Part shown: positions 7,865 to 57,653 of the stretch, one piece after another
Position numbering within the stretch: position 1 is the stretch's first letter
Layout: every line of letters begins with the position of its first letter
NCBI RefSeq assembly: GCF_004570845.1
Contig: NZ_SPQZ01000006.1
Span: forward strand, 124,001 to 188,000
Reading direction: 5' to 3'
DNA: 64,000 bases
Source of the DNA: Orlajensenia leifsoniae
GTDB taxonomy: Bacteria > Actinomycetota > Actinomycetes > Actinomycetales > Microbacteriaceae
The notes under the pieces: generated by a model
The model's database searches: none
Seen by the model: the letters and a program-made list of their open reading frames with translations, nothing else
What the model was told of the DNA's origin: nothing
Made by a program: the position numbers and the translations under genes

Positions 7865-10800
7865 TCACCCCTTCACGATCAGGCGCGTCGCCGATGCGGC
7901 GCTCGCGGAGTTGACTGCCGCCGTCACGAGGGCGGCCTGCGTGGCGCTGAGTTCGCCGAGGCCGGCGACCAGGGCTGCGCCGGTGACGGCATCCGCGATG
8001 GTCGAGGTGCCCTTGTCGGAGACCGTGACGCCGGCGTTCGGCGGTTTCGGTTGGGAGTAGGGATTGCCGACCTCGGCCACGGCGCGCCCCACGTTGGTCT
8101 TCGTGGCGTAGGAGCTGGCGTAGACCCCGAACTTTCCGGCGAACTCGATGAGCGACCCCGGCTCGTCGGGGTTGCGTACGTAGGTCCGGTAGGCGACCTT
8201 CGCGGGGGTGGCCGTGCCGACCTTGGGAGTGGTGGCGGCTGCGATGCGGCATCCGCCCGTCATGTCCTCGAAGCCGGAGCGGGCGAGGAGGCCCTCACCC
8301 TCGAGCTCGAAGAACTGGCCGGGGGCGAACGCCGTCTTGAGCTCGCTCACGGCGCCGACGAGGCCGGAGTCCGGTGTCGACGTGGGGGTGCCGATGGTCA
8401 CCATGTCGGCGGCGACCGGAGCCGAGCCGATTCGGGCGATCTTGACCCCGAACGGCACCTGCGTCTGCGAGACCTCGACCCCGGCGAGCGGATGCGCGAT
8501 GCGTCCGTCGATGTCGTCGACCTCGGCGAGGGTGACGAGCTGCGCGGCGTGATCCGGCAACTGCACCTTCCACGCGTCGTCCTCGTTCATCGCCTTCGCC
8601 GCGATCTGGAGCGCGTCGACCTTCGTGAGGATCGGAGCGGGCTGCTCGCCCCACTCGACCGGACCGAGGTCTTCGTCGAAGGTGGGAAGGAACCAGACGT
8701 CGACCTTGATGTGACCTGCCAGGCGGAAGGGCTTGGTGCCCTCGAGCGAGCCGCGGAACACGATGGAGCAGAGGGTGCAGCCGAACAGCTCCACCTCGAC
8801 GCCCACCTCGATGGAGATCGTGAACGCGAAGCGCGGCGCCCAGATGAAGATCATGTCGAGGGTGAGCCAGGCCTTCGCCGAGATGACGGCGAAGTCGGCG
8901 TTCAGGCGACCGTCGACTCCGAGCATCACCGATCCTGCCGTGATGGCGAAGTAGGCCTTGATGACGAAGCTGATCGCCTTCGAGGGCGACAGGTCGATGG
9001 TGACGCGGTCCATGTCGCCGAGCTTCGGCTTGCCGCCGGTCAGCTTCTCGTACTCGGGGTGGAAGCCGCCGACCGAGAACTCGAATGCGCCGCTGCCCGA
9101 CCACTGGATGTAGAGCCCGAGGTCGCCCGAGATCTTGATGCCGGCGACGGTGGAGTCGCGCATGCTGGCGAAGAGCAGCAGGTAGTCGGGCGTGATGGCG
9201 ACGAACACGTCGGCGCGGATGTCGGTGATCGGCGCCTCCTTCGTCGGCACCCGCACCCGCAGCGAACCGAGGATGACGATCATCGGATCGGGCAGGGCCA
9301 GCACGACGCCGAGCTTCATCTCGACGAACTTCGCCTGCGAGCCCCAGCCGAGCTCGACGATCGGACCGAAGACGAATCCGCCGTCCTTCGGCGGGAACAC
9401 GTTCGCCACCTTGTCGAGCAGCTTCGGCGCCTCGGCGACGGGGTTGTCGGGGAACAGCATCTTGTCGAGGATGTGCTCCTTCATTCCCGACCGCAGGGCT
9501 TCGAGGTCGAGACCGCGGTTGATGGCGAGGATGCCGCCGATGCCGTTCAGCGTGAAGCCCATGCTGAGATCGATGGCCACGGGGAAGCGCACGCCGATGA
9601 CCAGCACGAGCGAGAACGGATCGGGCGACAGGATGACGATGGCCGACACTCCGAACTTGAGGATCTGCAGTTGCACGACCCCGCCGAACTCGATCCGCTT
9701 CACGTCCTGGCCGTCGACCTTGTAGGTGCGCTCGACGCGCTGGATGAAGCCGCCGCCCGTGACGGGGCCGGCCTTCACGCGCAGGCCGATCGCATCGGGC
9801 CAGCGCGGCGAGACCGGGATGTCGAAGATCGCCTGCTGCTCCACGTCGCCGTTCAACGCGACGATGAAGCCGGTGCCCACGATCTGCAGGCCGACGGCGT
9901 CGCCGAGCTTGGCGGCGATCGACGTCGTGAGCTCGAACCCCGTCACGTCGCGGGCCTCGTTGCGCCGCAGTCCGAATGCGACCTCGCGCAGTTCGACGCC
10001 GGGGAAGGAGAAACGCACCGGCAGCACCGCACGCTCGTTGCCACGGCCGTCGCCGAGGTAGACGCCCTGCCCGGTGTCGATCGAGATGGTGGTGAGGGTC
10101 GTGGTCTTCGGCTCCTGCGAGCCCGGCATGACCTTGGAGAGCAGTGGGTCCTTCGTGAGACCGGGCTCGAGCATGGTCTGCATCCGCAGGCCCAGGATGG
10201 CCACGTCACCGATGAACCACTTGCCGTCGCGCTCGAGCAGGCTCGTCTCCTCCTCGGCGGTGGGGTTGGCGATCTCGCGGTCGCTGAACTGCAGGAACGC
10301 CTCGAACGAGACCTTGTCGAGCGTCATGGCGCCCAGCGTCACCGGACCGAGGTTCTGCAGCTTGGCTGCGAGCAGGAACGTGCCGCCCGTGCGGTCGAGC
10401 ACGAGCACGTCGCCGAGCTTCTTGGTGAGGTTCTGCACCCCGAGCACCGTCGAGCCGAAGCTGTCGAGCAGCTTCCCGGAGCCGGCGCCCAGATCCTTGA
10501 ACGGCTGGGCCCACGGGTTCCAGAGATCCATCAGGCCGGAACGGATGGTCTCGTCGACAGTGCCGTCGGCCTTCTTGGCGAGCTCCTTGGCGACGATGTT
10601 GAACGCCTCGTCCATGGCGGCCAGGGCCATGCCCAGTCGCACGGCGACGCGGGACGCCGTGTCGACGTCGAAGTCGTCCTTGTCGATGTCGTCAGCCGAC
10701 TCCTTCACCATCTTGGCGATGAGGTCGGTCTGCTTCTTGATCGCCTTCGCGATCGGCTCGACGAGGGCGACGGCGGCTTTGATGTCGGCCTTGAGCTTCT

Positions 10801-10954
10801 CGAAGGTCGGCTTGACGTCGCCGACGATGCCGAACGTGACGATGGACTCGAGGAACGGCACCGTGTCCTTGAACGACGTGCCGCTCATCTCGCCGAGGCG
10901 GGAATTGGCGAAGGCTTCGATTCCGTTGAGGAATCCGGTTCCGATGTCGGTCAT
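7865..10954 (-). CDS. Large DUF6603-like protein, first gene of operon
   Basis: A 1029-residue protein. The frame extends about 56 codons further upstream, but that part is Arg/Pro-rich and atypical, so I chose the ATG at 10954 (MTDIGTGFLNG). The N-terminal 150 residues are helical and Lys/Ala-rich, with pieces such as FEKLKADIKAAVALVEPIAK. The body (roughly 300-800) is rich in alternating hydrophobic beta-strand pattern with many Gly residues, including GFTLNGIGGILAINRGLDL and FGPIVELGWG. This matches what I remember of DUF6603, a large beta-rich domain of unknown function. No signal peptide is present. It leads the operon with the two giant proteins downstream. Function unknown; a structural or shell/tube role is speculation. 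Confidence 0.85.
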   Translation of the reverse strand: MTDIGTGFLNGIEAFANSRLGEMSGTSFKDTVPFLESIVTFGIVGDVKPTFEKLKADIKAAVALVEPIAKAIKKQTDLIAKMVKESADDIDKDDFDVDTASRVAVRLGMALAAMDEAFNIVAKELAKKADGTVDETIRSGLMDLWNPWAQPFKDLGAGSGKLLDSFGSTVLGVQNLTKKLGDVLVLDRTGGTFLLAAKLQNLGPVTLGAMTLDKVSFEAFLQFSDREIANPTAEEETSLLERDGKWFIGDVAILGLRMQTMLEPGLTKDPLLSKVMPGSQEPKTTTLTTISIDTGQGVYLGDGRGNERAVLPVRFSFPGVELREVAFGLRRNEARDVTGFELTTSIAAKLGDAVGLQIVGTGFIVALNGDVEQQAIFDIPVSPRWPDAIGLRVKAGPVTGGGFIQRVERTYKVDGQDVKRIEFGGVVQLQILKFGVSAIVILSPDPFSLVLVIGVRFPVAIDLSMGFTLNGIGGILAINRGLDLEALRSGMKEHILDKMLFPDNPVAEAPKLLDKVANVFPPKDGGFVFGPIVELGWGSQAKFVEMKLGVVLALPDPMIVILGSLRVRVPTKEAPITDIRADVFVAITPDYLLLFASMRDSTVAGIKISGDLGLYIQWSGSGAFEFSVGGFHPEYEKLTGGKPKLGDMDRVTIDLSPSKAISFVIKAYFAITAGSVMLGVDGRLNADFAVISAKAWLTLDMIFIWAPRFAFTISIEVGVEVELFGCTLCSIVFRGSLEGTKPFRLAGHIKVDVWFLPTFDEDLGPVEWGEQPAPILTKVDALQIAAKAMNEDDAWKVQLPDHAAQLVTLAEVDDIDGRIAHPLAGVEVSQTQVPFGVKIARIGSAPVAADMVTIGTPTSTPDSGLVGAVSELKTAFAPGQFFELEGEGLLARSGFEDMTGGCRIAAATTPKVGTATPAKVAYRTYVRNPDEPGSLIEFAGKFGVYASSYATKTNVGRAVAEVGNPYSQPKPPNAGVTVSDKGTSTIADAVTGAALVAGLGELSATQAALVTAAVNSASAASATRLIVKG

Positions 10955-11126
10955 CGTGTCCCACTGTGCGGTGCGGGCGCTTCGTGGCGGCGTGCGTGCC
11001 GTGACGCCTGGCTTCCTGGTGTGCGTGCGCCCGCGACGGTGCGGGCGAATCGGCTCCGGGCGAGCGATCGGGCGGGTGGAAGCTCGACGCGCGGGCGGAG
11101 GACGCCCGAACACAGCGGGCATCGCG

Positions 11127-11155
11127 AGAATTCAGTTTGTTCGGGAGGCAGTCAA
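11127..11155 (-). promoter_or_regulatory. Candidate promoter of giant-protein operon
   Basis: On the minus strand TTGACT (11150-11155) is followed after 17 bp by AATTCT (11127-11132). The -35 matches the housekeeping consensus well and the -10 is weak. It would leave a leader of about 170 nt before the ATG at 10954. Confidence 0.35.
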
Positions 11156-11294
11156 CGACGCGAAGGGGCGGAAGCTGACGACTGATCTGCAGCCGACTAT
11201 AGACCCGGCGCGGGGCGCGCTTCTAGGGGCAGACCCCTGACCTCGGTTCGCCGAGAACCGCGTGGAGCGACCGTCCGAAGCGCGCGGGCACACC

Positions 11295-11321
11295 TGTCGA
11301 AATCGCGCAGCCGGCATCGAC
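11295..11321 (+). promoter_or_regulatory. Candidate ECF42-type promoter (TGTCGA-N17-CGAC)
   Basis: TGTCGA at 11295-11300 and CGAC at 11318-11321 are separated by 17 bp and lie about 55 bp upstream of the GTG start of the DGPF gene. As I recall, ECF42 sigma factors recognise TGTCGA in the -35 and CGA/CGT in the -10 region of their own DGPF-sigma operons. That would make this operon autoregulated. Confidence 0.6.
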
Positions 11322-11374
11322 ATACTGATGGGAACGCCATCCGGGTTCCCGAATCCCAGCGCAAGGAGTGGACC

Positions 11375-11746
11375 GTGAAGTACCTCATCCTCATCAAGAG
11401 CAACCCCGAGTGGGCCGGCGCCTTCGCCTCGTTCACGCCGGAGCAGCAGGCCGAGGGCATGGCCCTCTACGAGCAGCTGTTCGCGGACCTGCAGGAGTCG
11501 GGCGAGCTCGTCGACGCCGAGCAGCTCGCGGCCCCCGAGACCGCGCGCGTCGTGAGCGTCGGCGCCGATGGCCCCGTCGCCAGTGACGGCCCGTTCATCG
11601 AGGCCAAGGAGTGGTTCGGCGGCTACTACATCGTCGACGTCGCCTCACTCGACCGTGCCGTCGAGATCGCCGGGCGCCTGCCCGAGGCCCAGGGCGGCAT
11701 GGTGTCTGTGCATCCGGTCATGGCCAACGCCGGCATGGAGCTCTGA
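11375..11746 (+). CDS. DGPF (YCII-related) domain protein
   Basis: A 123-residue protein starting at GTG 11375, with AAGGAG at 11363-11368 giving ideal spacing. It begins MKYLILIKSN and contains the DGPF motif followed by IEAKEWFGGYYIVD, the hallmark of the YCII-related DGPF family (small ferredoxin-fold proteins). Genes of this family are the standard partner of ECF42 sigma factors, and here the sigma gene follows after 16 bp. The biochemical role of DGPF proteins is not established; some data on the sigma group link it to antibiotic and stress phenotypes. Expression is probably controlled by the downstream sigma factor through the TGTCGA-type promoter. Confidence 0.93.
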   Translation: MKYLILIKSNPEWAGAFASFTPEQQAEGMALYEQLFADLQESGELVDAEQLAAPETARVVSVGADGPVASDGPFIEAKEWFGGYYIVDVASLDRAVEIAGRLPEAQGGMVSVHPVMANAGMEL

Positions 11747-21603: not shown

Positions 21604-22584
21604 ATGACTGCCACCACGAACATGCCCGCCGTGAACCCCGGCGCATCAGGCTCGGGTTCGGGCTCCGGCGCCGGCCTTCCGTCGACGACGGATGCTCCGC
21701 GCCTGCCGTCGCTGTCTCGCCGGTCGTCGTCGGCTCCGGCCGCCCGGCGCGCCAAGGCGCCGATGTCGATCGGCACCACGCTGGTGCTGCTCATCGGGGC
21801 CCTGTACTGCCTCACACCCGTTCTCTGGGTCGTCATCGCGTCGACCAAGGACGGCTCCGAGCTGTTCAGCACCTTCACCTTCCTGCCGTCGAGCCACCTG
21901 TGGGACAACATCGTGGAGCTCACGCAGTACCGCGGCGGCCTCTACTGGCGCTGGATGGTCAACACGGCGCTGTACGCCGGAGTGGGCGCCATCCTGTCGA
22001 CGTACGTGTCGATGCTCTCGGGCTACGCGCTGGCCAAGTTCACGTTCCCCGGCAAGTCGGGCGTCTTCAAGGTGCTGCTCATGGGCGTCCTCGTGCCCGG
22101 CGTGATCCTCGCGATCCCGCAGTACTTCATGCTCGCGCAGGTGGGGATGACCAACACCTACTGGGCCGTGCTGCTGCCGCAGATCATCAGCCCCTACGGC
22201 ATCTACCTGGCACGCATCTACGCGGCCGCCGCCGTGCCCACCGAGATCATCGAGTCGGGCCGCACCGAGGGTGCCAGCGAGCTGTTCATCCTGCACAGGC
22301 TCGCCATGCCGATGATGCTGCCCGGTCTCGTGACCGTGTTCCTGTTCCAGTTCGTGGCCATCTGGAACAACTTCATGCTGCCGTACATCATGCTCGGCGA
22401 CGACAAGCTGTTCCCGATCACCGTGGGGCTCTCGGGCCTGCTGAACCAGGGGTCGACCGTGCCGGCGCTGTACACATTGGTGATCACGGGCGCGCTGCTG
22501 TCGATCATCCCGCTGATCGCCCTGTTCCTCGTGCTGCAGCGCTACTGGCGGGTGGACCTCGCGGCCGGTGCGGTGAAGGCGTGA
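21604..22584 (+). CDS. Sugar ABC transporter permease (MalG type)
   Basis: A 326-residue protein starting at ATG 21604, 4 bp after the first permease stop. A Ser/Gly/Pro-rich cytoplasmic N-terminus of about 55 residues is longer than usual. Six membrane helices follow, with the EAA motif as TEIIESGRTEGASELFILHRL. It is the second permease half of the CUT1 oligosaccharide importer. The end of the gene is 30 bp before the LacI regulator gene, so the four genes probably form one operon. Confidence 0.94.
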   Translation: MTATTNMPAVNPGASGSGSGSGAGLPSTTDAPRLPSLSRRSSSAPAARRAKAPMSIGTTLVLLIGALYCLTPVLWVVIASTKDGSELFSTFTFLPSSHLWDNIVELTQYRGGLYWRWMVNTALYAGVGAILSTYVSMLSGYALAKFTFPGKSGVFKVLLMGVLVPGVILAIPQYFMLAQVGMTNTYWAVLLPQIISPYGIYLARIYAAAAVPTEIIESGRTEGASELFILHRLAMPMMLPGLVTVFLFQFVAIWNNFMLPYIMLGDDKLFPITVGLSGLLNQGSTVPALYTLVITGALLSIIPLIALFLVLQRYWRVDLAAGAVKA

Positions 22585-22614
22585 CGAGCGCCCTTCCGCC
22601 CCTAGGCTGACACC

Positions 22615-23631
22615 GTGGCAGAGAGCACCCCGCGCAAGCGCCCGACGATCGAGGATGTCGCGCGCGAGTCCGGCGTCTCGCGCGGCACGGTGTCGCGCGT
22701 GCTGAACGGTGGCCATTGGGTGAGTCCGGATGCCGCAGCCGCCGTCGAGAAGGCGATCAAGAAGACCGGCTTCCGAGCCAACCCGCACGCCCGCAACCTG
22801 GCGACGGCCCGCGCGAACTCCATAGCGTTCCTGCTCACCGAGTCGCACGAGCGACTGTTCGAGGACCCGAACTTCTCCGCCCTCATGCGCGGGGCCGCCC
22901 AGGCGCTCGCCGAGCGCGACCTCCCGCTCGTGCTGCTGATGGCCGGGTCGGATGACGAGCAGCGCCGCGCCACCGAGTTCATCACCGCCGGTCACGTCGA
23001 CGGAGCCCTGCTCGTGTCATCGCACCGCGGACGCGAGAGCTTCCTCGGGGAGCTCGTGGCCGCCGAGATCCCGGTGATCGCCTGCGGCATCCCGCTCGGC
23101 TACGAACGTCGCATCGGCTACGTCTCGGCCGACGATCTCGAGGGAGCGCGCGACATGGTGCTCTACCTGCGCGGCCTCGGACGCAGGCGCGTCGCCCACA
23201 TCGCCGGCCCGCTCGACACCTCCGGGGGAACCGGGCGCCTCGAGGGGTATCGCCTCGAGATGGGCGACGACTTCGACGAGTCCCTCGTCGAGGAGGGCGA
23301 CTACTCGCGTACGAGCGGGGAGCGGGCCATGCGCGCACTGCTGGAGCGGCATCCGGATGTCGACGCCGTCTTCGCCGCCAACGACCTCATGGCCGCGGGC
23401 GCGCTCGACGTGCTGCACGCCGCCGGACGCTCGGTGCCCACCGACGTCGCCGTCGCGGGCTTCGACGACGCCCCCATCGCCACCCGCACCTCGCCCGAGC
23501 TCACCACGATGCGCCAGCCCTTCGATCGCATCGCGCGCGAGATGGTGCGGATGCTGCTCGAGGTCATCGACGGGCAGCCGGCCGCACGGCTCACGATGCC
23601 CACGGAGCTGGTGGTGCGCGGGTCGGCTTGA
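22615..23631 (+). CDS. LacI family transcriptional regulator
   Basis: A 338-residue protein starting at GTG 22615. The N-terminal LacI helix-turn-helix reads TIEDVARESGVSRGTVSRVL and is followed by the hinge helix near residues 50-62. The C-terminal half is a periplasmic-binding-protein-like sensor (DAVFAANDLMAAGALDVL, VAVAGFDDAPIA, TTMRQP). As the last gene of the importer operon it most likely represses the importer and the divergent GH42 gene, releasing DNA on binding a galactoside. Candidate operators lie in 19031-19227. The true inducer is not deducible from sequence. Confidence 0.95.
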   Translation: MAESTPRKRPTIEDVARESGVSRGTVSRVLNGGHWVSPDAAAAVEKAIKKTGFRANPHARNLATARANSIAFLLTESHERLFEDPNFSALMRGAAQALAERDLPLVLLMAGSDDEQRRATEFITAGHVDGALLVSSHRGRESFLGELVAAEIPVIACGIPLGYERRIGYVSADDLEGARDMVLYLRGLGRRRVAHIAGPLDTSGGTGRLEGYRLEMGDDFDESLVEEGDYSRTSGERAMRALLERHPDVDAVFAANDLMAAGALDVLHAAGRSVPTDVAVAGFDDAPIATRTSPELTTMRQPFDRIAREMVRMLLEVIDGQPAARLTMPTELVVRGSA

Positions 23632-23661
23632 TCCGCCCGTCCGGCCGCGCGTTCCTCCCTC

Positions 23662-23797
23662 CGCTGATCGAGTAGTGTCGCCCGCCGTCTCGCCTCGCTG
23701 ATCGAGTAGTGCCCGACGAAGTCGGACACGTATCGAGATCACCCCGACGTGGTCTCGATACGCCTGCTCGCTGCGCTCGCGGGCTACTCGACCAACG
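23662..23797. repeat. Composite palindromic intergenic repeat (TCGAGTAG / TATCGAGA type)
   Basis: CGCTGATCGAGTAGTG occurs at 23662 and again at 23696. CGTATCGAGA (23729) faces TCTCGATACG (about 23753-23762), and GCTACTCGACCAACGG (23782-23797) is the opposite-strand form of the ends. Repeats of this kind (TATCGAGACC...CTACTCGACC) are scattered through Microbacteriaceae genomes. They resemble REP-type or terminator elements. Confidence 0.75.
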
Positions 23798-23879
23798 GAC
23801 AGCAACGTCGTGTCGAAGTTGGGGGTAGACGCAGCGACGCTCGCGCTTGTACCGTGATCGAAAGGCTCCATCGAGGGGG

Positions 23880-24932
23880 GTGGTCAGCATCGACGCAGAA
23901 GTTCGATCCAGCCTGTACCCCGTTCGGCGGTTCATTCTCGGCGGGCTGCTCGCCTCGACCGCCCTCGGAATCGCCGGCTTCTTCTTCGGCTCGGCGTCGG
24001 CATCCGCCGAGGAGGCCTCGCAGCCGCCTCGCTCGCCGTCCGCGGTGTCGTCCCTCGTCTCGACTCTCGGCTCGACCGTCGGAGGGGTCGTGACGGATGC
24101 CGTCGACGTCGTCGACGCCACGGTCGATGCCGTCGTCCCCACCGTGACAAGCGTGGTCCCTGAGCCCGTCGCCCCGGTGGTCGACGCCGTGACCGACCCC
24201 GTGTCCGACGTGGTTCAGGCCGTGGCCGATGCGGACCCCGTATCGAACGTGGTGACGCCGGTGACCGACGTTGTCGACGATGTCGTCGGGGGTGTTCCGA
24301 TCGCCTCAGACCTGCTCGGCGACTCGCCGACCGGCGACCTGCTGAACCCGGCCGTCGACGCCGTCGACGGCACCCTCGACGTTCCCGCGCAGGCCCTCGA
24401 CGACCTCGGCGGCACCCCCGGCGTTCCCGGCCTGCCGCCCGTGATCCCGCCGCTGATCCCGCCAGTCGAGGGCGCCGACGCGGACGGAGACGACCCTGTC
24501 GGCACCCCTGGCACCGATGGATCCAGCGTTTCAGGCCACTCGCCCGAGCAGCTCGGTCCGCGCGCGCCGCTCGCCGCCGACGCTCCCGCGCTCGCCCCGT
24601 TCGCCGGCCTCGAACTCTCGGGATCGCCCGCCGACTCGGCCGGTTCTGCCGCGCTGTCGTCCGCGGCATCCGTCGCCGGATCCGCCTCGGCGCCCGACCC
24701 CTCGGCTCCGTTCGCGCCCCGCGACGGCTCGCCGGCTCCAGCACTTCCCGCGGGCCCGACCACGGCCGGCGGATCATCGGGCGCGTCCGGCGGCGGTGGC
24801 CACGGCGGCGTCGCAGCCGAGGCATCCGCTCGCACGGTCGTCCCCGACCCGACGACAGCACTCTTCGACCGCCCGACCGACGACCGCATCCCGGCGTCGC
24901 CCGTCGCCGCGCACGACACCACCCCTGGCTGA
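23880..24932 (+). CDS. Secreted Val/Ala/Pro-rich protein of unknown function
   Basis: Start uncertain. GTG 23880 gives 350 residues with a signal peptide (VRRFILGGLLASTALGIAGF, cleavage near ASA); a TTG at 23847 would add 11 residues. After cleavage the protein has a segment of alternating Val/Asp/Thr/Pro words (TDPVSDVVQAV, TPVTDVVDDVV) and then a disordered Pro/Ala/Ser/Gly-rich half with GASGGGGHGG. There is no sortase motif or membrane anchor. It sits 83 bp upstream of the chaplin-like gene, in the same direction and with the same secreted low-complexity style, so the two may be expressed together as cell-surface or extracellular material. No enzyme motif is seen. Confidence 0.75.
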   Translation: MVSIDAEVRSSLYPVRRFILGGLLASTALGIAGFFFGSASASAEEASQPPRSPSAVSSLVSTLGSTVGGVVTDAVDVVDATVDAVVPTVTSVVPEPVAPVVDAVTDPVSDVVQAVADADPVSNVVTPVTDVVDDVVGGVPIASDLLGDSPTGDLLNPAVDAVDGTLDVPAQALDDLGGTPGVPGLPPVIPPLIPPVEGADADGDDPVGTPGTDGSSVSGHSPEQLGPRAPLAADAPALAPFAGLELSGSPADSAGSAALSSAASVAGSASAPDPSAPFAPRDGSPAPALPAGPTTAGGSSGASGGGGHGGVAAEASARTVVPDPTTALFDRPTDDRIPASPVAAHDTTPG

Positions 24933-25015
24933 GTGGGATCCGTCTGCCCGTGAGGCAGAACGCGATCCGAAGCCTCCCGCATGGGAGCACCAACACTCGA
25001 CCAAGGAGTTTCATC

Positions 25016-26485
25016 ATGAACAAGTACGTCTCCAGAGGGCTCTGGCTCGCCCTCTTCGTCGGCGGTCTATCGGTGGGCGGGGCCTGTGCAGCGAACGCTG
25101 CAGAGACCGACGGCACCGACGCCATCGCCTCGGGCACCCAGAGCGGGTTGTCCATCTCAGTGCCGGTCACTCTCGTCGGTGACGCCATCAGCGTTCTCGG
25201 CGATGCCGTGACGGATGCCGCGGCTCCTGCTCCGGCTCCGGCTGAGGCTCCCGCACCGGCCGCTCCGGAAGCATCGCCGGAGGCCGTGCCGCCAGCGCTG
25301 TCGACGTCGGGTTCCGATGGAGTGGCATCCGGAACCCAGGCCCCTATCTCGATCGAGGTGCCGGTGACCATCACCGACACGGCGGTCAGCGTGCTCGGCG
25401 ACGCCGAGAGCTCGCACGAGGCCGAGGCCCCGGCTGCGACTGAGCCGGCTGCCCCGGCTCCGGCGTCTGGCGGGGACCTCTCCACCTCGGGAGAGGACGG
25501 CGTCGCATCCGGAACGCAGGCGCCCATCGCGGTGAGCGTGCCGATCACGATCGGCGGCAACGCCATCAGCGTGCTGGGCGACTCGCAGACCGCCGGAACC
25601 GATGACGCGGCCCCTGCCGCGCCGTCGGCGCCCGCCGGTCCTGCCGCTCCTGCCGCTGGATCGATCACCGACGGCAGCGGCAGCATCCTCGGCGGCACCC
25701 AGCTGCCGATCGACGTGGCGATCCCGGTGACGATCGACGGCAACGCGATCAGCGTCGTGGGCGATGCGGCCAGCGCGACGGGCTCCCCGTCAGGAGAAGC
25801 ATCCGGTGAGGCACCCTCGGGCTCCGCTCCGGCTGCTCCGAGCGTCACCTCGGGCGACGACGGCGTGCTCTCGGGCACGCAGCTGCCGATCGACGTCGCG
25901 GTTCCGGTGACCGTCACTGACACGGCCGTGGCGGTCGTGGGCGACACCACCAGCGCGGGTTCGACGGGTACGACGGATGCCGCTCCCGTGGGTCCGGCTG
26001 CTCCGAGCGTCACCTCGGGCGACGACGGCGTGCTCTCGGGCACGCAGCTGCCGATCGGGGTGTCGATTCCGGTGATGATCAGCGGCGACGCCGTGAGCGT
26101 CATCGGTGATGCCGAGACCGGCGGATCGGATGGGAGCGATCCGGTGACGCCGGTCGACCCGACCGACCCGACCGACCCGACCGAACCCGTCACGCCGACT
26201 GATCCCACGGACCCGGTGACACCGACGGATCCGACCGACCCGGTGACGCCGACCGATCCGACCGACCCGGTGACGCCGGTGGACCCCCAGGGCCCGCAGG
26301 ACACGACCGACTCGGCCACGACGGCCGGAACGTCGGCCGCAACGCCCATCGCGGCGGCGGCGGACGCCGGCGCCCTCGCGTCCACGGGAACCGACGTCGG
26401 ATCGGCCCCGCTGTTCGCGCTGATGCTGCTCGCTGCGGGGGTGCTGCTCATCGTGACGCGTCGGGTGATGATGACGCGGCGGTGA
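25016..26485 (+). CDS. Cell-wall-anchored protein with six chaplin-like repeats
   Basis: A 489-residue protein starting at ATG 25016, with AAGGAG spaced 7 nt. Signal peptide with cleavage near residues 26-29 (AANAAE). Six repeats, at about 35-63, 101-129, 161-189, 222-250, 282-310 and 337-365, share the pattern GV.SGTQ.PI.V.VPVTI....ISV.GD. This matches the chaplin domain of Streptomyces (GV.SGN..Q.PV..PV.VCGN...VIG) but has no cysteine pair. Ala/Pro linkers separate the repeats. A DPTDPVTP repeat stalk (375-424), then LASTG (454-458), a hydrophobic helix and TRRVMMTRR form a sortase signal, as in long chaplins. Probably amyloid-forming or surface-modifying. The chaplin assignment is by pattern only. 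Confidence 0.85.
   Translation: MNKYVSRGLWLALFVGGLSVGGACAANAAETDGTDAIASGTQSGLSISVPVTLVGDAISVLGDAVTDAAAPAPAPAEAPAPAAPEASPEAVPPALSTSGSDGVASGTQAPISIEVPVTITDTAVSVLGDAESSHEAEAPAATEPAAPAPASGGDLSTSGEDGVASGTQAPIAVSVPITIGGNAISVLGDSQTAGTDDAAPAAPSAPAGPAAPAAGSITDGSGSILGGTQLPIDVAIPVTIDGNAISVVGDAASATGSPSGEASGEAPSGSAPAAPSVTSGDDGVLSGTQLPIDVAVPVTVTDTAVAVVGDTTSAGSTGTTDAAPVGPAAPSVTSGDDGVLSGTQLPIGVSIPVMISGDAVSVIGDAETGGSDGSDPVTPVDPTDPTDPTEPVTPTDPTDPVTPTDPTDPVTPTDPTDPVTPVDPQGPQDTTDSATTAGTSAATPIAAAADAGALASTGTDVGSAPLFALMLLAAGVLLIVTRRVMMTRR
26138..26287 (+). repeat. DPTDPVTP repeat stalk in the chaplin-like gene
   Basis: Residues 375-424 of the chaplin-like protein repeat DPTDP and DPVTP words, with nearly identical DNA units built on GACCCGGTGACGCCGAC. 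This is a Pro-rich wall-spanning stalk just before the sorting signal. Copy number could vary. Confidence 0.85.
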
Positions 26486-26657
26486 TGCTGCCGTCGTGAC
26501 CGCCGCCACCATCGGCGGCTGGCAGAATCCGGCATGGGGTGGAGTTCGGGTCTCCACCCCATGCCGGCCTGCCCGCGCTCGCTCGGCTCTTGTCCGATCC
26601 GGCACCCGGGTCTAGCGTGAGGAAGACCGCACTGTAACCATTTCGGGGGACAAGCTC

Positions 26658-28568
26658 ATGGTCACCATCTCCACGCACACTTCTTCGCAGCGTCGGCGCC
26701 CGATGCTGCGACGGCTGGCGCTCGCCACCGTCGGCGTTCTGGCGTTCGGCGCTCTCGCGACGGTCGCTCCGGCGACGGCTCAGCCGCAGAACGCAACGGT
26801 CTCGGCGGCATCCGTCGCCGGGAACGGAGGAGGCCACGGCGGCCATCCGGGCTCGAAGCCGACCACCTCGACCTCCACGGGGTACGGCGGCGCGGTGTCG
26901 TCGGTCGACGCATCCGCGAGTCGGGTGGGCATCGAGGTTCTGAAGCGCGGCGGCAATGCCGCGGATGCCGCAGTCGCCACGGCGGCAGCCCTCGGCGTGA
27001 CCGAGCCGTACAGCGCGGGGATCGGCGGCGGCGGATACTTCGTCTACTTCGACGCGAAGTCGGGCGAGGTCAGCACCATCGACGGCCGCGAGACGGCACC
27101 GGCGGGCATCACCCCCGACGCGTTCATCGATCCGGCGACCGGAGCGCCGTACCCGTTCACGCCGCAGCTCGTCTCCTCGGGCGTCTCGGTGGGAGTGCCC
27201 GGAACCCTCGCCACCTGGGATGCCGCCCTCGACGAGTTCGGCACGAAGCGACTCTCGACGATGCTCGCGCCGGCCATCCTGTTGGCCGCGAAGGGCTTCC
27301 CGGTCGACGACACCTTCCGCAACCAGACCCTCGACAACAAGGCGCGCTTCGCCGCGTTCCCCGACACCGCCAAGCTGTTCCTTCCGGGAGGCGACGCGCC
27401 GAAGGTCGGCACGACGTTCCGCAACCCCGCGCTCGCCAAGACCCTCGCGCTCATCGCCCTGCGCGGACCGAATGCGCTGTACAAGGGACGCCTCGCCGCG
27501 GAGATCGCCGATGTGGTGCAGAACCCGCGGATCGACCCGGCCTCCACCCTCCCCGCGCCGGCCGGCACCATGACCACGGCAGACCTCGCGGCCTACGAGG
27601 TCGTGCAGCAGGCCGCGACCCAGGTCGACTACCGCGGCCTCGACGTCTACGGCATGGCGCCGTCGTCGTCGGGCGGCATCGCCGTGGGCGAGGCGCTCAA
27701 CATCCTCGAGAACCACGATCTCTCGTCGACGGATGCCGCAGCCGCCCTGCACCTCTACCTCGAGGCATCGGCCCGGGCCTTCGCGGATCGCGGCGCGTAC
27801 CTGGGCGACCCGGCCTTCGTCGACGTCCCGACCGAGACGCTGCTCAGCCAGGAGTTCGCGGACGCCCGCGACTGCACCATCGACCCGTCGGCTGCCTCGA
27901 CCCGACCGGTGGCCGCCGGAGCGCTCGACGCCGTAGGATGCGCGTCAGTCGCCTTCGAGGAGGCCGCCGACACCGAGAACGTCTCGACGACGCACCTCTC
28001 CGTGGTCGACAAATGGGGCAACGCCGTGGCCTACACGCTCACTATCGAGCAGACCGGCGGTTCGGCGATGGTGGTTCCGGGGCGCGGATTCCTGCTCAAC
28101 AACGAGCTGACCGACTTCAGCACGGTCTACAACGCCACCGACCCGAACCGCATCGAACCGAACAAGCGCCCTCGGTCGTCGATGTCGCCCACGATCGTGC
28201 TCGACGACGGCACGGTGAAGTTCGTCGTCGGATCGCCCGGCGGCGCGACCATCATCACCACCGTGCTGCAGATCCTGATGAACCGCATCGACCTGGGCAT
28301 GACGCTGCCCGAGGCCGTCGCGGCGCCGAGGGCGTCGCAGCGGAACGGTCCCACGACGTCGGCCGAGCCCGAGTTCATCACGGCCTACGGTTCGGCGCTG
28401 GCGCCCTACGGCCAGGTGCTGGTGCCCTCCGGCGACCAGTTCACCTCGGCCGCGCAGATCGGCGCGGCGGCGGCGATCGAGGTCGGGCGGAAGGGCCTGC
28501 TCACGGCGGCCGCGGAACCCGTGCGTCGCGGCGGTGGCACCGGCTTGGTGGTGCGCCCGGCCCGGTAG
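26658..28568 (+). CDS. ggt: Gamma-glutamyltransferase
   Basis: A 636-residue protein starting at ATG 26658, just after GGGGGA. Signal peptide (RRLALATVGVLAFGALATVA) with cleavage near ATA-QP, then a Gly/His-rich linker. The conserved GGT features are GGNAADAAVATAAALGVTEPYSAG, IGGGGYFVYFD and IDGRETAP. The autocatalytic cleavage site and catalytic nucleophile is Thr444 in STTHLSVVDKWGNAV, followed by GFLLNNELTDF and RPRSSMSPTIV. The exported proenzyme self-cleaves into two subunits and transfers or hydrolyses gamma-glutamyl groups of glutathione-like or mycothiol-related compounds. The actinobacterial substrate is uncertain. Single-gene unit. Confidence 0.95.
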   Translation: MVTISTHTSSQRRRPMLRRLALATVGVLAFGALATVAPATAQPQNATVSAASVAGNGGGHGGHPGSKPTTSTSTGYGGAVSSVDASASRVGIEVLKRGGNAADAAVATAAALGVTEPYSAGIGGGGYFVYFDAKSGEVSTIDGRETAPAGITPDAFIDPATGAPYPFTPQLVSSGVSVGVPGTLATWDAALDEFGTKRLSTMLAPAILLAAKGFPVDDTFRNQTLDNKARFAAFPDTAKLFLPGGDAPKVGTTFRNPALAKTLALIALRGPNALYKGRLAAEIADVVQNPRIDPASTLPAPAGTMTTADLAAYEVVQQAATQVDYRGLDVYGMAPSSSGGIAVGEALNILENHDLSSTDAAAALHLYLEASARAFADRGAYLGDPAFVDVPTETLLSQEFADARDCTIDPSAASTRPVAAGALDAVGCASVAFEEAADTENVSTTHLSVVDKWGNAVAYTLTIEQTGGSAMVVPGRGFLLNNELTDFSTVYNATDPNRIEPNKRPRSSMSPTIVLDDGTVKFVVGSPGGATIITTVLQILMNRIDLGMTLPEAVAAPRASQRNGPTTSAEPEFITAYGSALAPYGQVLVPSGDQFTSAAQIGAAAAIEVGRKGLLTAAAEPVRRGGGTGLVVRPAR

Positions 28569-32603: not shown

Positions 32604-32679
32604 AGAGCACTCCATCGAGCCGCGCTCAGCCGGGCGAGTGACCCTTGTTCTGGGGGAGCGTCGATGCGAGCATGAGCAT

Positions 32680-34662
32680 ATGCGCCACCGCTCGGCTCGT
32701 CCCATCGCCCTGGTCCTCGCGGGTGCGCTCACCGCTGGTGCCGCCATCGTCGGCGGACTCGTCGGAGTTGTGGCACCCGCCGCCGCCGACGTCGGTCCGG
32801 TCAATCCGGTCCGGGTTCCGATCACCCCGACGCCGCCACCGCTTCCGGACCCGCCGTTCCCAGCGCATCCGGCGAACAGCGGCTTCCTGGTGTTCATCGA
32901 GGGGGACGTCTACCTCAACGCCGACGAGTCCGAGGGCACCCTCGCCCTCGGCGGCGACCTCTCCTTCGGGACCACCTACAACGTCGAGGCCGGAGGCGTC
33001 ACGCCGACCCCCACCTTCACAGCGCCCGGTGACACCGTCCAGACATCGCTCTATGTGGGCGGTGGCATGGACTTCGACCAGTCGGGCGGCAATATCCTCC
33101 GGGTGCTGAACGGCGGTTACGCCAAGGTGGCCGACACGACGACGTACCTCGCGCACGACACCGATCAGAACGGTGCGGCGATCGACTGGCGCATCACGGA
33201 GCCGGGTGCTGCCGCCGAGTCCACTCCGCGCATCGAGGGCACGTCGCGGCAGACCCCCGCTTCGGTCGGCACCCCCGTGCCATCGAACCTGATCGACATC
33301 CCGACAGCCTTCGCGACCTATCGGGGCCTGTCGACGGATCTCGGCACGTGCCCGAACACCGTCGTGCTCACCGATGACCAGGGCGCTCCGCTGGCCTCGC
33401 CGTTCGCCACAGGAGCGCGCGGTCACCTCAGCCTGGTGCCGGGCCAGACCAACGTGCTCAACATCACAGCCGACGACCTGTCGGCGCTCGGCGAACTGGC
33501 CTTCGATGACGAGCCCTCTGAGACGACACCGTTGCTCGTCAACGTGACCGGATCCGCGTTCAACGGTCGGATGCCGAACTCCCCCGGCTCGTCATCGGCG
33601 CAGGCTCCGTTCATCCTCTACAACTTCCCCACGGCGACGACGGTCACTGTGACCGGCGGGGACTCGCTCGAGGGAACGATCTACGCGCCGCGTGCCGACG
33701 TGCGGTGGCAGGTGACGCAGAACATCGAGGGCAACATCATCGGCGCCACGTTCACCCACGGCCCGGGTGGCCCGATGGGCACCACGCCGCGCGAGGTGCA
33801 CGACTTCCCGTTCAACGCCGAACTCAGCTGCTCGACTCCGGCGACGCAGGCCGAGCTCACCCTCGTGAAGGTCGTCGAGGGCGGCGACGCGGATGCGGGC
33901 GACTGGGAACTGTCGGCCGCGGGTCCCACTCCGATCACGGGTGCGTCGGGGGAGGAGGCGGTGACGGATGCCGCCGTCGATCCCGGCGACTACACGCTGA
34001 GCGAGTCCGGTGGTCCCGGCGACTACATCGCTGGCGACTGGATCTGTGACGGGGCCGAGGTGGTCGACGGCGTGGTCTCGATCGAGGCCGGTGACGACGT
34101 GACGTGCACGATCGTGAACACCTTCGACCCCGTCGATCCGAAGTTGACGCTCATCAAGATCGTGTCGGGCGGCACGGCGTCGCCGACGGACTGGGTGCTC
34201 TCGGCGGCGGGTCCGACACCGATCACGGGAGCGACGGGTTCGACGGCCGTGACCTCGGCGGAGGTGCTCCCGGGTGACTACGTGCTCAGCGAGTCGGATG
34301 GACCCGACGGCTACGAGGCCCGCGGCTGGGTCTGCACCGGCGCCACGGTGGTGGGAGACACCGTGACCGTGGACTGGGGCGACGACGTCTCCTGCTCGAT
34401 CATCAACTCGGCCGACGGCGGCACGGGTGGTGGCGGAGACGGTGGAGGTGGAGACGGCGGCGGCGGTGATGGCGGTGGCACCGGTGGCGGCGGCACCGGC
34501 GGAGACGGAACCGACACCACGTCAGGCGGCGGAACGAGCACGCTGCCGTCGACCGGAGTGGACCCGCGAGGCGCGGTCGGGGTCGCGCTGGTGTTCGCCC
34601 TCCTGGGCGTCACGCTCCTTGGAGCCAACCGCATCCGTCGCAGTTCAACCACGGCTCGCTGA
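32680..34662 (+). CDS. LPXTG-anchored surface protein with choice-of-anchor A domain and two SpaA-like repeats
   Basis: A 660-residue protein. I chose ATG 32680 since it gives a standard signal peptide (RHRSARPIALVLAGALTAG, cleavage near AAA-DV). Residues 66-365 look like the choice-of-anchor A (collagen-binding-domain-like) fold, with FLVFIEGDVYLNADESEGTLALGGDL and GTIYAPRADVRW. Two repeats at about 391-483 and 488-578 (ELTLVKVVEGG..., KLTLIKIVSGG...) are SpaA/prealbumin-type stalk domains with paired cysteines. A Gly-rich linker (GDGGGGDGGGG), LPSTG (622-626), a hydrophobic helix and a basic tail complete a sortase substrate. Likely an adhesin or pilin-like protein. No sortase gene is nearby. 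Confidence 0.9.
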   Translation: MRHRSARPIALVLAGALTAGAAIVGGLVGVVAPAAADVGPVNPVRVPITPTPPPLPDPPFPAHPANSGFLVFIEGDVYLNADESEGTLALGGDLSFGTTYNVEAGGVTPTPTFTAPGDTVQTSLYVGGGMDFDQSGGNILRVLNGGYAKVADTTTYLAHDTDQNGAAIDWRITEPGAAAESTPRIEGTSRQTPASVGTPVPSNLIDIPTAFATYRGLSTDLGTCPNTVVLTDDQGAPLASPFATGARGHLSLVPGQTNVLNITADDLSALGELAFDDEPSETTPLLVNVTGSAFNGRMPNSPGSSSAQAPFILYNFPTATTVTVTGGDSLEGTIYAPRADVRWQVTQNIEGNIIGATFTHGPGGPMGTTPREVHDFPFNAELSCSTPATQAELTLVKVVEGGDADAGDWELSAAGPTPITGASGEEAVTDAAVDPGDYTLSESGGPGDYIAGDWICDGAEVVDGVVSIEAGDDVTCTIVNTFDPVDPKLTLIKIVSGGTASPTDWVLSAAGPTPITGATGSTAVTSAEVLPGDYVLSESDGPDGYEARGWVCTGATVVGDTVTVDWGDDVSCSIINSADGGTGGGGDGGGGDGGGGDGGGTGGGGTGGDGTDTTSGGGTSTLPSTGVDPRGAVGVALVFALLGVTLLGANRIRRSSTTAR

Positions 34663-53871: not shown

Positions 53872-54579
53872 ATGTCGACACCGGGCGAGAAGCTCAAGGC
53901 ACGCTTCGCGCGCCGGTTCGATGCCACGTCGATCGACGGCGACCTGCTCGTTCACGTCGCCGAACAACTGAGCTTCATCGACACCTCCTGCGCTGCCTAC
54001 GACCTGGGAAATCGGGCCGAGGCCAAGCGACTGGCCACGACGGTGCGTGTACTCGCGCACGATTCCGAGGTGGCGACGAGCCTGCTGTCTCGCATGTCGA
54101 TGCGCGATGAAATGCCGTGGGCTGACGGCTCGATTCCCGGTCAGATCGCCCCGATCAGGGAGCGGCAGTCAGCGGGGCATCGACAGGCGGCATCCGTTCT
54201 CACGATCGCGCACGCCTCGCTCGGACTCAACGAGGACATGAAGCTCATCGGCTGGGCGCCGGCGTTCGAGGAGTTTCCTGTCGGTCAGCACCATGTGCCG
54301 TTCAAGTACTGGTGGGAGTCGTCTCGCATGTGGGACGTTCACGGCACGGAGGTGTCTAGGCGACTCATCGTGCATTGGCTCGCGAACAAGGATGGGGGTG
54401 CCCACGTCGACGTGCTCCCCGCCGAGTACGAGGCGATCGCTCGCCTGGGCAGCATGGGCCTGCCGTGGAGTGACGCCGCAGGCGGATTGAAGCGAGAGCA
54501 CTCGCCGATCCGCGCTGCGATGCGGCAGATCGCTGAGGAGGTGCGGGTGTCGGTGAGGGAAGCTCTTGCACTGACCTGA
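53872..54579 (+). CDS. Conserved hypothetical protein of unknown function
   Basis: A 235-residue protein starting at ATG 53872. The N-terminal 70 residues (LSFIDTSCAAYDLGNRAEAKRLATTVRVLAHDSEVATSLL) look like a family of unknown proteins in which a His-Asp pair is conserved; I cannot name it. The rest has VPFKYWWESSRMWDVHGTEVSRRLIVHWLANKDGGAHVD and no recognisable enzyme motif. No signal peptide or membrane helix. The gene begins a stretch with lower GC and may be part of an acquired region. Its terminus is convergent with the broken gene at 54607. Confidence 0.8.
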   Translation: MSTPGEKLKARFARRFDATSIDGDLLVHVAEQLSFIDTSCAAYDLGNRAEAKRLATTVRVLAHDSEVATSLLSRMSMRDEMPWADGSIPGQIAPIRERQSAGHRQAASVLTIAHASLGLNEDMKLIGWAPAFEEFPVGQHHVPFKYWWESSRMWDVHGTEVSRRLIVHWLANKDGGAHVDVLPAEYEAIARLGSMGLPWSDAAGGLKREHSPIRAAMRQIAEEVRVSVREALALT

Positions 54580-54606
54580 GCGCGTCGATTCCCATTGCCT
54601 TTGGCG

Positions 54607-55234
54607 TCAGGGCTGGAAGGCGAACCTGACGACAATTGCCGGATCGATCCCACCGATGATGCTGCCGTAGAAGAACTTTGCTTGATCCCTCAAGGTGTCG
54701 GAGTTCTTGTCGACGTATTCGCGCTCCGTGTCGTCGTTGAGAATCCGACTGGCCATCTCGAGTTTGTCGATCTCGGGTGTCATCCAACTCAGAACACCGT
54801 TGCTCTCAGTCGCCAACTCGAATCGCTCGTTCTCATGACCGATGAACACGAACTCAGGGACCGTGATCAGAAACTCATCGTCGCCGGTCTGTTCGATCGT
54901 CACATCCTGACCGTCGATGCCCAACTTCGCATCAAATGAGTACTCGACGTATGAGACTCTCTCTGTCCCCGGGACCGGGATGTCCCACCAAGCGAAGCTC
55001 GTCTTGTCTTCCCTCGATTCGAGACCATGGATACCGAGGCTCAGAAGTACGATCTGCTGCTGACGCGTGATCGATTCGATCACCTGAGTATTGCGTGTCT
55101 CGGACGATGTGCTGAACGGATCCGCGAGGAAGGGGTTCAGCGGCCCGATGGCCAACGCTGCTCCGCCCGCCGAGCAAGCCAACTACTAGCAGCGGCGCCG
55201 CCAACCACAGCCCTACTTTTGTGGGCGTCCTCAT
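54607..55234 (-). pseudogene. DUF4230-like membrane or lipoprotein gene with a +1 frameshift near its start
   Basis: Two overlapping minus-strand frames join into one likely protein. The ATG at 55234 gives a signal-like MRTPTKVGLWLAAPLLVV, which runs into non-conserved sequence. A second frame, open only from TTG 55182 (preceded by a TAG), gives 191 residues: SITRQQQIVLLSLGIHGLES, SYVEYSFDAKLGIDG, FLITVPEFVFIG and SIIGGIDPAIVVRFAFQ, resembling DUF4230. Skipping one base near 55183-55190 would join the signal to the body and create LVLAC, a lipobox-like site. Either a recent frameshift or a sequencing error. If the TTG were the true start, the protein would have no export signal. Confidence 0.6.
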
Positions 55235-55274
55235 CTGGATCGGCCGATGGTCGCTCGCGCCGGACCCACGGATT

Positions 55275-56444
55275 TCAGGTTCTCGCCAATCGTTGCTCGG
55301 TCATCTTCTTGATGACACTGATGAGAGTGGGACTGTAATCGCTCCAAGCGCTACTGACCTGGGTCGGATCGATCTTGCCCAAATGGATCTGTTCACACAG
55401 CCGCAGCCAAGCTTCTCCGGTGGCCGCGGTGAGAGCAAAAGCCACGGCCGCGTTCACGACGTTGCCGGCGCCAGGAATCAGCTTGATGAAGCTGCGCGCC
55501 AGTGCCTTTCCGGCAATCTGGGCTCCCAACTGAGCTAGGACAGACGTCGAGAGCATTGTCTTGAGTTCGAGGTCGTAGATCGCGGCGATTCGCCCCATCA
55601 TCGTCATCTGAATCGGCGCCAGAGCCGCCGCATCTGCGAGGGGGATCGGGACTGCAGCGGTGGTGGCGGCTGCAGTCGCTGCAGCAGCAATGACCGGTCG
55701 CGCCAAGTCGCGCTTCCAAGGAAGATTGAGTCGCTGAGCGATGCGAAACGCGTCCTTCTCGTCTTCTGGAGAAAGAGCAAGAGTTTCCGCCACGAGCTCA
55801 CCGAGTCCGTGACCCTGACCCTTTCCATGTTTTCCGTGCGCCGAGGTGAGAATCACGCGCTGGACGGGTATATCGATGGGGCTACCGTTCGCGTCTATGG
55901 GGTCCAGGAGCCAATCGCGGAACTCCTCTACGCCCTTCGTCGCTTTGTGGGTTCCAGTGATCGGATTCTTGGTCCATGCGACTTTGGTGAGAACGAGGAT
56001 GACGGGAAGTCCTGATGCATGGAGTTCACGAATCATCTCGATGTCGGGCTTCGTGAGCCGGTCTGCATTTGAGGTGACGCAGTACCAGACGACGGCGATC
56101 TGCTGCTCAGTAGGCCCATTCGAGATGGTCCTCAGGTGTGCTCGGAGGGTGTCAGCCGGAGACTTGCTTGAACCGATCTCGAATCCTTCGAAGTCCCAGA
56201 TCCCAAGAGACTCATCGTGGTAGTAGTTGACGCCTTCCGTGACAGGAAGGCCCTTTCCAACCTTGGCTCGGTCCCTTCCGAAGACCGCGTTGACGAGCGA
56301 GGATTTCCCCACGCCAGTTCCTCCGACGATCGCAAGGTTGAATCGGCCGTACCGACTTTTGGCCTTCTCGTTCGCCTGGATGAAAGGCTGATCATCGATG
56401 TCGGCGCGGCTGTCATCGGCGCGCTCGGCGGGCTCTGCTTCCAT
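55275..56444 (-). CDS. Era/dynamin-like GTPase with C-terminal DUF697-like domain
   Basis: A 389-residue protein starting at ATG 56444. The P-loop is GGTGVGKSS (41-49). G3 is WDFEGFE (variant of DxxG) and G4 LVLTKVAW (TKxx, with Val replacing the usual Asp). The hydrophobic C-terminal third (PVIAAAATAAATTAAVPIPLADAAALAPIQMTMM..., ALARSFIKLIPGAGNVVNAAVAFALTAATG) matches DUF697, a membrane-associated region of YcjF-like proteins. Membrane-associated GTPases of this form are often near toxin, defence or stress genes. The AT-richer sequence than the rest of the window suggests acquisition. Confidence 0.88.
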   Translation of the reverse strand: MEAEPAERADDSRADIDDQPFIQANEKAKSRYGRFNLAIVGGTGVGKSSLVNAVFGRDRAKVGKGLPVTEGVNYYHDESLGIWDFEGFEIGSSKSPADTLRAHLRTISNGPTEQQIAVVWYCVTSNADRLTKPDIEMIRELHASGLPVILVLTKVAWTKNPITGTHKATKGVEEFRDWLLDPIDANGSPIDIPVQRVILTSAHGKHGKGQGHGLGELVAETLALSPEDEKDAFRIAQRLNLPWKRDLARPVIAAAATAAATTAAVPIPLADAAALAPIQMTMMGRIAAIYDLELKTMLSTSVLAQLGAQIAGKALARSFIKLIPGAGNVVNAAVAFALTAATGEAWLRLCEQIHLGKIDPTQVSSAWSDYSPTLISVIKKMTEQRLART

Positions 56445-56661
56445 GCTGCGGTTGAATTCCTCTGGCCGGATTAGAGCAGGGCGGACGACGTGCTCGCGGA
56501 CAAGCTATCTCAAGGGGCCGCGTCCATGGTGCGACTGTACGATCCAACACGCCGAACACGAGCTCACCATGGGACAGCGTCCCTCTCGCTCGGAACAGAC
56601 GCCACGTGCCCGTACCGGATATCCTCCGGGATAGATATGGAACCCAAGGGAGGGGGAAACG

Positions 56662-57534: not shown

Positions 57535-57653
57535 GGCGATTCCAAAGAGCGTCGCTAACCGAGGCTTGATGTCTTCCATCAGTCGAGAATGCGCAACGCT
57601 GCTCGGGAGGAGAGGTCGCGATCCAGCGCATCCCCTCCTCCCTCGACCTCATG

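Follow-up and report, generated by a model that had tools for sequence, protein, structure and literature searches.

Chaplins have been studied as tools for the aerial growth of filamentous actinomycetes, and the long chaplins of Streptomyces carry an LAXTG signal. Arthrobacter chlorophenolicus belongs to the Micrococcales. In this non-sporulating rod-coccus a chaplin-like protein was noted (Chandra and Chater 2013, PMC4255298); in the available text of that review the protein is named, and no architecture, partner or RNA is described for it. The definition of a chaplin includes three GN motifs spaced 12-13 residues apart, according to the available text of PMC13251363, which also describes the hydrophobic proteins CwpA and CwpB of Actinoplanes missouriensis as surface proteins outside Streptomyces that are anchored by a class E sortase and concludes that they have no chaplin domains. 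Precedents for translational coupling through RNA unfolding, as given in the available text of PMC12548453, are rpmI-rplT (+52 nt), phage f1 VII-IX and MS2 coat-lysis.

The locus described here was found in a 64,000-nt stretch of the Orlajensenia leifsoniae genome (the window), and consists of two genes on the forward strand separated by a structured RNA element, which probably ties production of a wall protein to that of a secreted partner. Like ChpA-C of Streptomyces coelicolor, the wall protein is secreted, contains a PF03777 domain and is predicted to be sortase-anchored. Unlike them, the Streptomyces side being taken from description, it has six repeats where they have two, lacks the Cys pair, has incomplete GN motifs, is the sole PF03777 protein found in its genome, and is preceded by the partner gene and the RNA element. 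It shares a probable dependence on a class E sortase with CwpA and CwpB, which differ in lacking chaplin domains, and its chaplin-like character with the protein of the non-sporulating Arthrobacter. As in rpmI-rplT and MS2 coat-lysis, where a structure hides the downstream ribosome site until upstream translation (available text of PMC12548453), we infer coupling of the two genes; unlike in those systems, the gap of 78-134 nt folds as a conserved three-way junction with the stop codon in its stem, and this recurs in five families of one order. No description of the operon, the partner or the RNA element was found in the literature searched, in which most subscription journals lay outside the scope, and the available text of a surfactant review (PMC4929970), of PMC8852316 and of PMC5043138 gives no account of the operon or the RNA; the partner protein and the conserved RNA element are apparently undescribed so far.

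A chaplin-repeat wall protein and its relatives

The ORF at 25016..26485 (+, ATG start) encodes a 489-aa protein with a signal peptide, six repeats, a Pro/Thr/Asp stalk, an LASTG sorting signal (residues 454-458, 26375..26389, +), a hydrophobic segment and an RR tail. The repeats start at residues 32, 98, 158, 219, 279 and 334 and together cover residues 32-365 (25109..26110, +); a rough regular-expression count overcounts them (seven for this protein), and six is used throughout. The sole Cys is residue 24, inside the signal peptide, leaving the mature part Cys-free. The layout of six Cys-free repeats, Pro stalk and LASTG proposed in the first-pass annotation is thus borne out. The Pfam profile PF03777 (ChpA-C) matches the protein in five stretches with an E-value of 3.6e-15 and 56 bits against a cut-off of 21, well beyond chance, and this confirms the chaplin-like character that the annotation had also claimed; a profile search without a hit, named there as the outcome that would count against it, did not occur.

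A search of the whole genome with PF03777 (E up to 0.001) gave two matches, both inside this ORF, and no short chaplin beside it, in a search that a divergent short form could escape. The chaplin Cys pair is absent from all mature repeats, an absence that the available text of PMC13251363 also gives for the C-terminal domain of ChpB. The three GN motifs are not complete either: two of the six repeats have GN at their last turn, as GGN or DGN, and the others have GD or TD. Because the Cys pair and the short chaplins are missing and the GN motifs are incomplete, we name the product a chaplin-repeat protein and not a chaplin: it is a chaplin relative by profile that fails the defining chaplin features. 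Shortly 3' of the gene, at 26529-26567, lies a perfect 16-bp hairpin in a region with a z of -4.3 against shuffles and no clear U-run, which is likely the transcript end.

The architecture had been put forward as new; that it is unique is not supported. Within the order sample of 396 genomes PF03777 matched 36, spread over 13 of 109 genera; loci for 30 of these genomes came with the search, two (G097, G315) were seen later and four (G085, G135, G309, G381) were counted by the match alone. The same plan was read in 28 of the 30 genomes with loci, with a conserved signal peptide, several mostly Cys-free repeats and, where the locus was long enough, stalk and wall signal; the other two genomes (G220, G203) have a PF03777 match and no chaplin-like ORF, and both still number among the 36. 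Scanning named genomes with the protein yielded 79 distinct loci among the best 80 of 274 matching stretches, mainly from Microbacterium and Agromyces and also from Agreia, Labedella, Schumannella and Janibacter. In the 73 complete named relatives the C-terminal signal is LAxTG in 67 and LPxTG in one, and five have none in the ORF as read; the mature part is Cys-free in 71, the two that differ (L096, L121) being read out of frame near the end. The six-repeat wall protein is therefore not a lone case, and its plan recurs in Microbacteriaceae and sister families. The expectation of a host outside Streptomyces is supported, the family being the one of Microbacterium and Agromyces.

In genome G041 (locus L050, identical to L030), the ORF at 9171-11588 has Cys-free repeats first and Cys-containing ones later within one protein, and this mixed-repeat protein is a possible intermediate that links the family with the Streptomyces type. 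Microbacterium-like copies also occur in records titled Fulvimarina (a MAG; L059) and Planococcus (L133), which are probably mislabelled or contaminated assemblies.

The upstream partner gene and a conserved structured RNA

The gene directly upstream (23880..24932, +) encodes a secreted Val/Thr/Pro/Ala-rich protein of 350 aa from the chosen GTG, with a signal peptide and the ending ...TTPG; the mechanical ORF starts earlier, at TTG 23847. Neither Pfam nor NCBIfam holds a model that matches the window partner at E up to 1, and comparison of 38 partner members with family profiles gave scattered single-member matches only, with no coherent family. In the AlphaFold model (mean pLDDT 59), residues 54-176 are predicted as Val-rich helices, and the C-terminal half is of low confidence.

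The pairing of the two genes is conserved; the first-pass annotation mentions neither the partner gene nor the RNA. In 20 neighbourhoods, 17 matched the window wall protein by BLAST, and the same-strand upstream neighbour was of the partner type in all 17. The start of the wall protein was recognisable in 98 of 100 loci (not in L055 and L133), and a partner-type ORF lies directly upstream in 96 of these 98 at a distance of 78-134 nt; the two loci without it (L059, L069) start near a contig end. A partner profile matched 50 of the 396 genomes of the order sample. Within the family sample (n=34), all 22 PF03777 genomes were also partner-positive and nine genomes had neither, while three (G083, G153, G249) had the partner without PF03777 at the thresholds used. 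In all three the RNA is present as well, followed by a gene whose signal peptide is of the same kind. Among 396 genomes of the phylum 21 matched the partner profile, 17 of them from beyond the order, where scores were weaker (best E 2.2e-12).

Comparison of the window genes between 11.5 and 40 kb showed that the run around the operon is kept only in a genome of the same genus (G299). Elsewhere only scattered matches occur, among them permeases of sugar transporters and LacI regulators (22-41% identity) and, in L041, two genes. The nearby LacI-type regulator, gamma-glutamyltransferase and SulP transporter were therefore left out of the system. Farther along the window, at 54001-64000, G+C falls from about 0.69 to 0.60-0.65, suggesting a possible island with genes for a helicase with SNF2/DEAD/ResIII matches (59316-62573), a GTPase with DUF697 (55275-56444) and a TM2 protein (57654-58949).

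The RNA element (24915..25018, +) spans about 104 nt and is predicted to fold as a three-way junction; it begins with the last partner codons, takes in the partner's stop codon (24930-24932) and runs through to the ATG that starts the wall protein gene. The 5' strand of the closing stem P1 (24915..24935, +) is formed by the partner coding end with its stop codon, and the 3' strand (24994..25012, +) contains AAGGAG (25003..25008, +), the presumed Shine-Dalgarno of the wall protein gene, with four of its six bases paired in the window fold; the junction encloses the bulged hairpin P2 (24936..24968, +) and the hairpin P3 (24972..24988, +), both of which appear in the fold of the window element and in the family covariation. 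In many loci CCTGACTGA is complementary to TCAGTCAGG, and TCAGTCAGG overlaps the Shine-Dalgarno of the wall protein gene. Since some loci are duplicates (L045 and L056, for example, are one genome in two records), 90 distinct elements were used. The z of the minimum free energy against shuffles is below -2 in all 90 (mean -5.1; window -3.4), the P1-side pairs between the partner end and the Shine-Dalgarno side number at least six in all 90 (mean 12.7, against 3.6 in shuffles), and at least four of the six Shine-Dalgarno bases are paired in 89%. As controls, 312 windows after the stops of other mechanical ORFs of at least 200 codons in the same loci gave a mean z of -0.66 with 16% below -2, and P1-like pairing of six or more was also seen in 39% of them. 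The partner protein ends in Pro-Asp in 88 of the 90 distinct elements, and the penultimate partner codon is CCT in 64 and CCC in 26, never CCG or CCA; Pro codons elsewhere in the partner genes are CCG 1338, CCC 1297, CCT 235 and CCA 98 times. Rfam 15 has no match above the gathering score at the element, either in the window (22000-28000) or in six related loci.

Three successive models were built for the element. Plain MAFFT alignment of ten diverse elements was misaligned for RNAalifold, and the first model, R1, was seeded with nine Agromyces sequences. Its search, which picked up the element in distant loci too, gave 71 matches, 61 in the expected place and strand, eight antisense there and two elsewhere. 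R2 recovered 87 of 92 sources in place (L059 in part), missing L049, L051, L122, L123 and L130, and also gave matches elsewhere (L050:11602-11693, L052:2359-2434, L081:5531-5569) and many antisense ones at the element's own place. The window element scored E 3.8e-4 with R1, 36.6 bits and E 1.6e-7 with R2, and E 6.3e-8 with R3, for which it was the sole match in the genome. In a 25-sequence alignment double changes occur at 23 of 32 pairs, and RNAalifold, folding these 25 rows by itself, arrives at nearly the same junction, with 28 pairs, 22 of them double-changed. In a 56-sequence alignment 24 of the 32 pairs are double-changed and 89.3% of cells are paired, a result reached by none of 500 shuffles, the slid controls on the same sequences having 27.5-45.9% of cells paired; the covariation score is 0.396, compared to 0.134 for shuffles and at most 0.070 for slid controls. 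The E-values of the RNA models are rough owing to short calibration, CM alignments favour the model that made them, and the sequences are relatives of one another; for the first two reasons alignment-free fold checks and a plain alignment of close sequences were added. The latter (MAFFT, 12 close sequences) gave four double-changed pairs, all in P2, with P1 placed only in part. Taken together, the element is a conserved structured RNA that covaries beyond shuffled and slid controls.

The element is specific for the partner/wall-protein gene pair. In an R3 scan of 299 family genomes, which used the RNA alone, 41 genomes matched with one copy each, and all 41 matches sit between a partner-type ORF and a gene starting with the signal peptide of the wall-protein family, as judged from the first 75 residues of the downstream genes (L175 is frameshifted near the downstream start). 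In the family sample (n=34) the RNA was found in 21 genomes, all partner-positive; R3 with its strict filters missed four of the 25 partner-positive genomes (G238, G249, G280, G336), three of which have weaker local matches. The order sample holds 49 copies in 47 of 396 genomes from five families, 45 genomes with one copy and two with two. Outside the family, four families contribute 28 copies from 26 genomes. All 28 have an upstream ORF ending in Pro-Asp, Pro-Ala or Pro-Gly, a count partly helped by choice, since for 18 of them the script favoured frames with such ends; in these 18 loci a wall signal is visible in ten of the downstream ORFs. The downstream ORF starts with a family-type signal peptide in 24 of the 28 copies (two are cut by contig ends), and in four (L189, L201, L203, L208) the RNA and the partner end are kept next to a short or broken downstream gene. 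In three loci (L181, L183 and L188, of genomes G027, G044 and G186) the partner and the RNA are the same and the wall protein has V/D-rich repeats of the VVDDVLEDGG type instead of chaplin-type ones; L181 came from the partner search and matches R3.

What such an element does may be read in several ways. It may be an element of mRNA processing or stability that sets unequal amounts of the two proteins, with the hiding of the Shine-Dalgarno secondary; a structure this stable (-41 kcal/mol in the window, down to about -75 in others) lying exactly between two cistrons, in a single copy per positive genome (all those of the 299 family genomes, and 45 of 47 in the order sample), speaks for this, but its P1 strands lie at the stop codon and the Shine-Dalgarno with at least six stem pairs in 90 of 90 elements, a placement not needed for processing, and we regard this role as unlikely. 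The three-way junction, the hidden Shine-Dalgarno and the presence in five families would also suit a leader of the riboswitch type, which opens the Shine-Dalgarno on sensing a ligand or protein. Beyond the coding end and the start-codon region, however, a single unpaired column is conserved at 80% or more (88, A, 46 of 56), only one type of target is seen and no relation in Rfam was found; because unpaired positions are hardly conserved, a sensing leader was dropped as first choice and appears improbable.

Proposed translational coupling of partner and wall protein

The reading that we prefer, at a probability of roughly 0.55, is that of a two-gene cell-surface operon in which RNA-unfolding coupling matches the output of the wall protein to that of its partner. 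The two genes would be co-transcribed, the first giving a secreted Val-rich protein with predicted helices and the second a stalked protein, also secreted, which carries six chaplin-type beta repeats and would be linked to the wall by the class E sortase. In the mRNA between the cistrons, P1 would pair the last codons and stop of the partner with the Shine-Dalgarno region of the second gene, whose ribosome site would stay largely hidden as long as the partner is untranslated. A ribosome at the partner stop would occupy the 5' strand of P1 and free this site, so that synthesis of the wall protein would accompany that of the partner and scale with it.

This was simulated by folding the segment from 45 nt of partner plus stop through 33 nt of the wall protein gene, and refolding it after removal of everything up to 9 nt past the stop, to mimic the cover of a terminating ribosome. 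Over the 90 elements, which are related, so that their independence is overstated, the predicted unpaired probability of the Shine-Dalgarno rose from 0.180 in the free state to 0.446 with the 5' strand occupied, and it went up in 81 of 90; with shuffled heads the same simulation gave 0.375 free and 0.405 occupied. An RNA thermometer would likewise draw on the hiding of the Shine-Dalgarno by the element, but the predicted opening over the same 90 elements is 0.177 at 30 C against 0.183 at 45 C, and for this lack of a temperature effect it was rejected as highly improbable. The simulated opening, the absence of a temperature effect and the few conserved unpaired positions together favour coupling over a ligand switch or a thermometer.

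Several points count against coupling. The window's own Shine-Dalgarno stays shut in the simulation (0.371 free, 0.363 occupied), and a gap of 78-134 nt is long for coupled genes; according to the available text of PMC12548453, coupling is most efficient at short distances, and structure just after the stop went with weaker coupling in one screen. Also weighing against it are the four partner-positive family genomes missed by R3, the four of 28 copies outside the family next to a short or broken downstream gene, the 39% of control windows with six or more such pairs, the bias of CM alignments, the relatedness of the sequences and the low confidence of the AlphaFold models.

More tentatively, and at somewhat less than even odds, the element may be a new RNA family, a junction of one gene's stop with the next gene's Shine-Dalgarno, usually present once per genome in several families of one order, that would fix the ratio of helical to wall protein in an undescribed two-part coat, with the RNA and the helical partner as the core and the repeats as the exchangeable part.

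Putative surface role and meaning for the family

The first-pass annotation had proposed a genome search for a sortase, and a class E enzyme was indeed found (NF033747, 240 bits, cut-off 160) among four sortases, the other three being closest to class F, where they score 164, 162 and 106 bits and the cut-off is 166. Together with the LASTG signal, this makes it likely that the wall protein is anchored to the wall by the class E sortase. AlphaFold predicted four to five short strands in every repeat at low confidence (mean pLDDT 58, pTM 0.44). Foldseek with this low-confidence model gave no match at E up to 0.001; the best VIA-align match of the same model was 4dn7 with a Z of 6.8, in the range that the tool calls common, and an rmsd of 14.2 over 184 residues, and matches in a PDB sequence search with the wall protein profile were confined to the stalk and the C-terminal part. 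Elsewhere in the window, the gene at 32638-34662 likely encodes a second surface protein, with a putative ice-binding-like adhesive domain (PF20597) and a prealbumin-like domain SpaA_2.

It is doubtful, as judged from sequence features, whether the wall protein would act as a chaplin, assembling into amyloid fibres and rendering the cell surface hydrophobic. The PF03777 match, the short strands predicted in each repeat, and the LASTG signal with a class E sortase are consistent with such a role, but there is no second PF03777 protein in the genome and no Cys pair, and the gene at the same place in sister families encodes V/D-rich repeats (L181, L183, L188), so that not every form of the operon needs a chaplin fibre. 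The preferred reading, a coupled two-gene operon, would have the partner and the wall protein serve jointly in a surface coat, for adhesion or surface hydrophobicity.

The coupling reading predicts poor wall protein output without translation of the partner, in genera including Microbacterium, Agromyces and Janibacter. A conserved C-terminus, here SPD, can at least partly reflect RNA structure and not protein function. From the variants in sister families it can be seen which parts the operon retains (the RNA and the partner) and which it exchanges (the repeats). Attachment might have preceded other chaplin roles, as raised in the available text of the 2013 review (PMC4255298). The widespread multi-repeat form in Microbacterium-like bacteria suggests a role at the wall surface that is older, or wider, than that in aerial growth.
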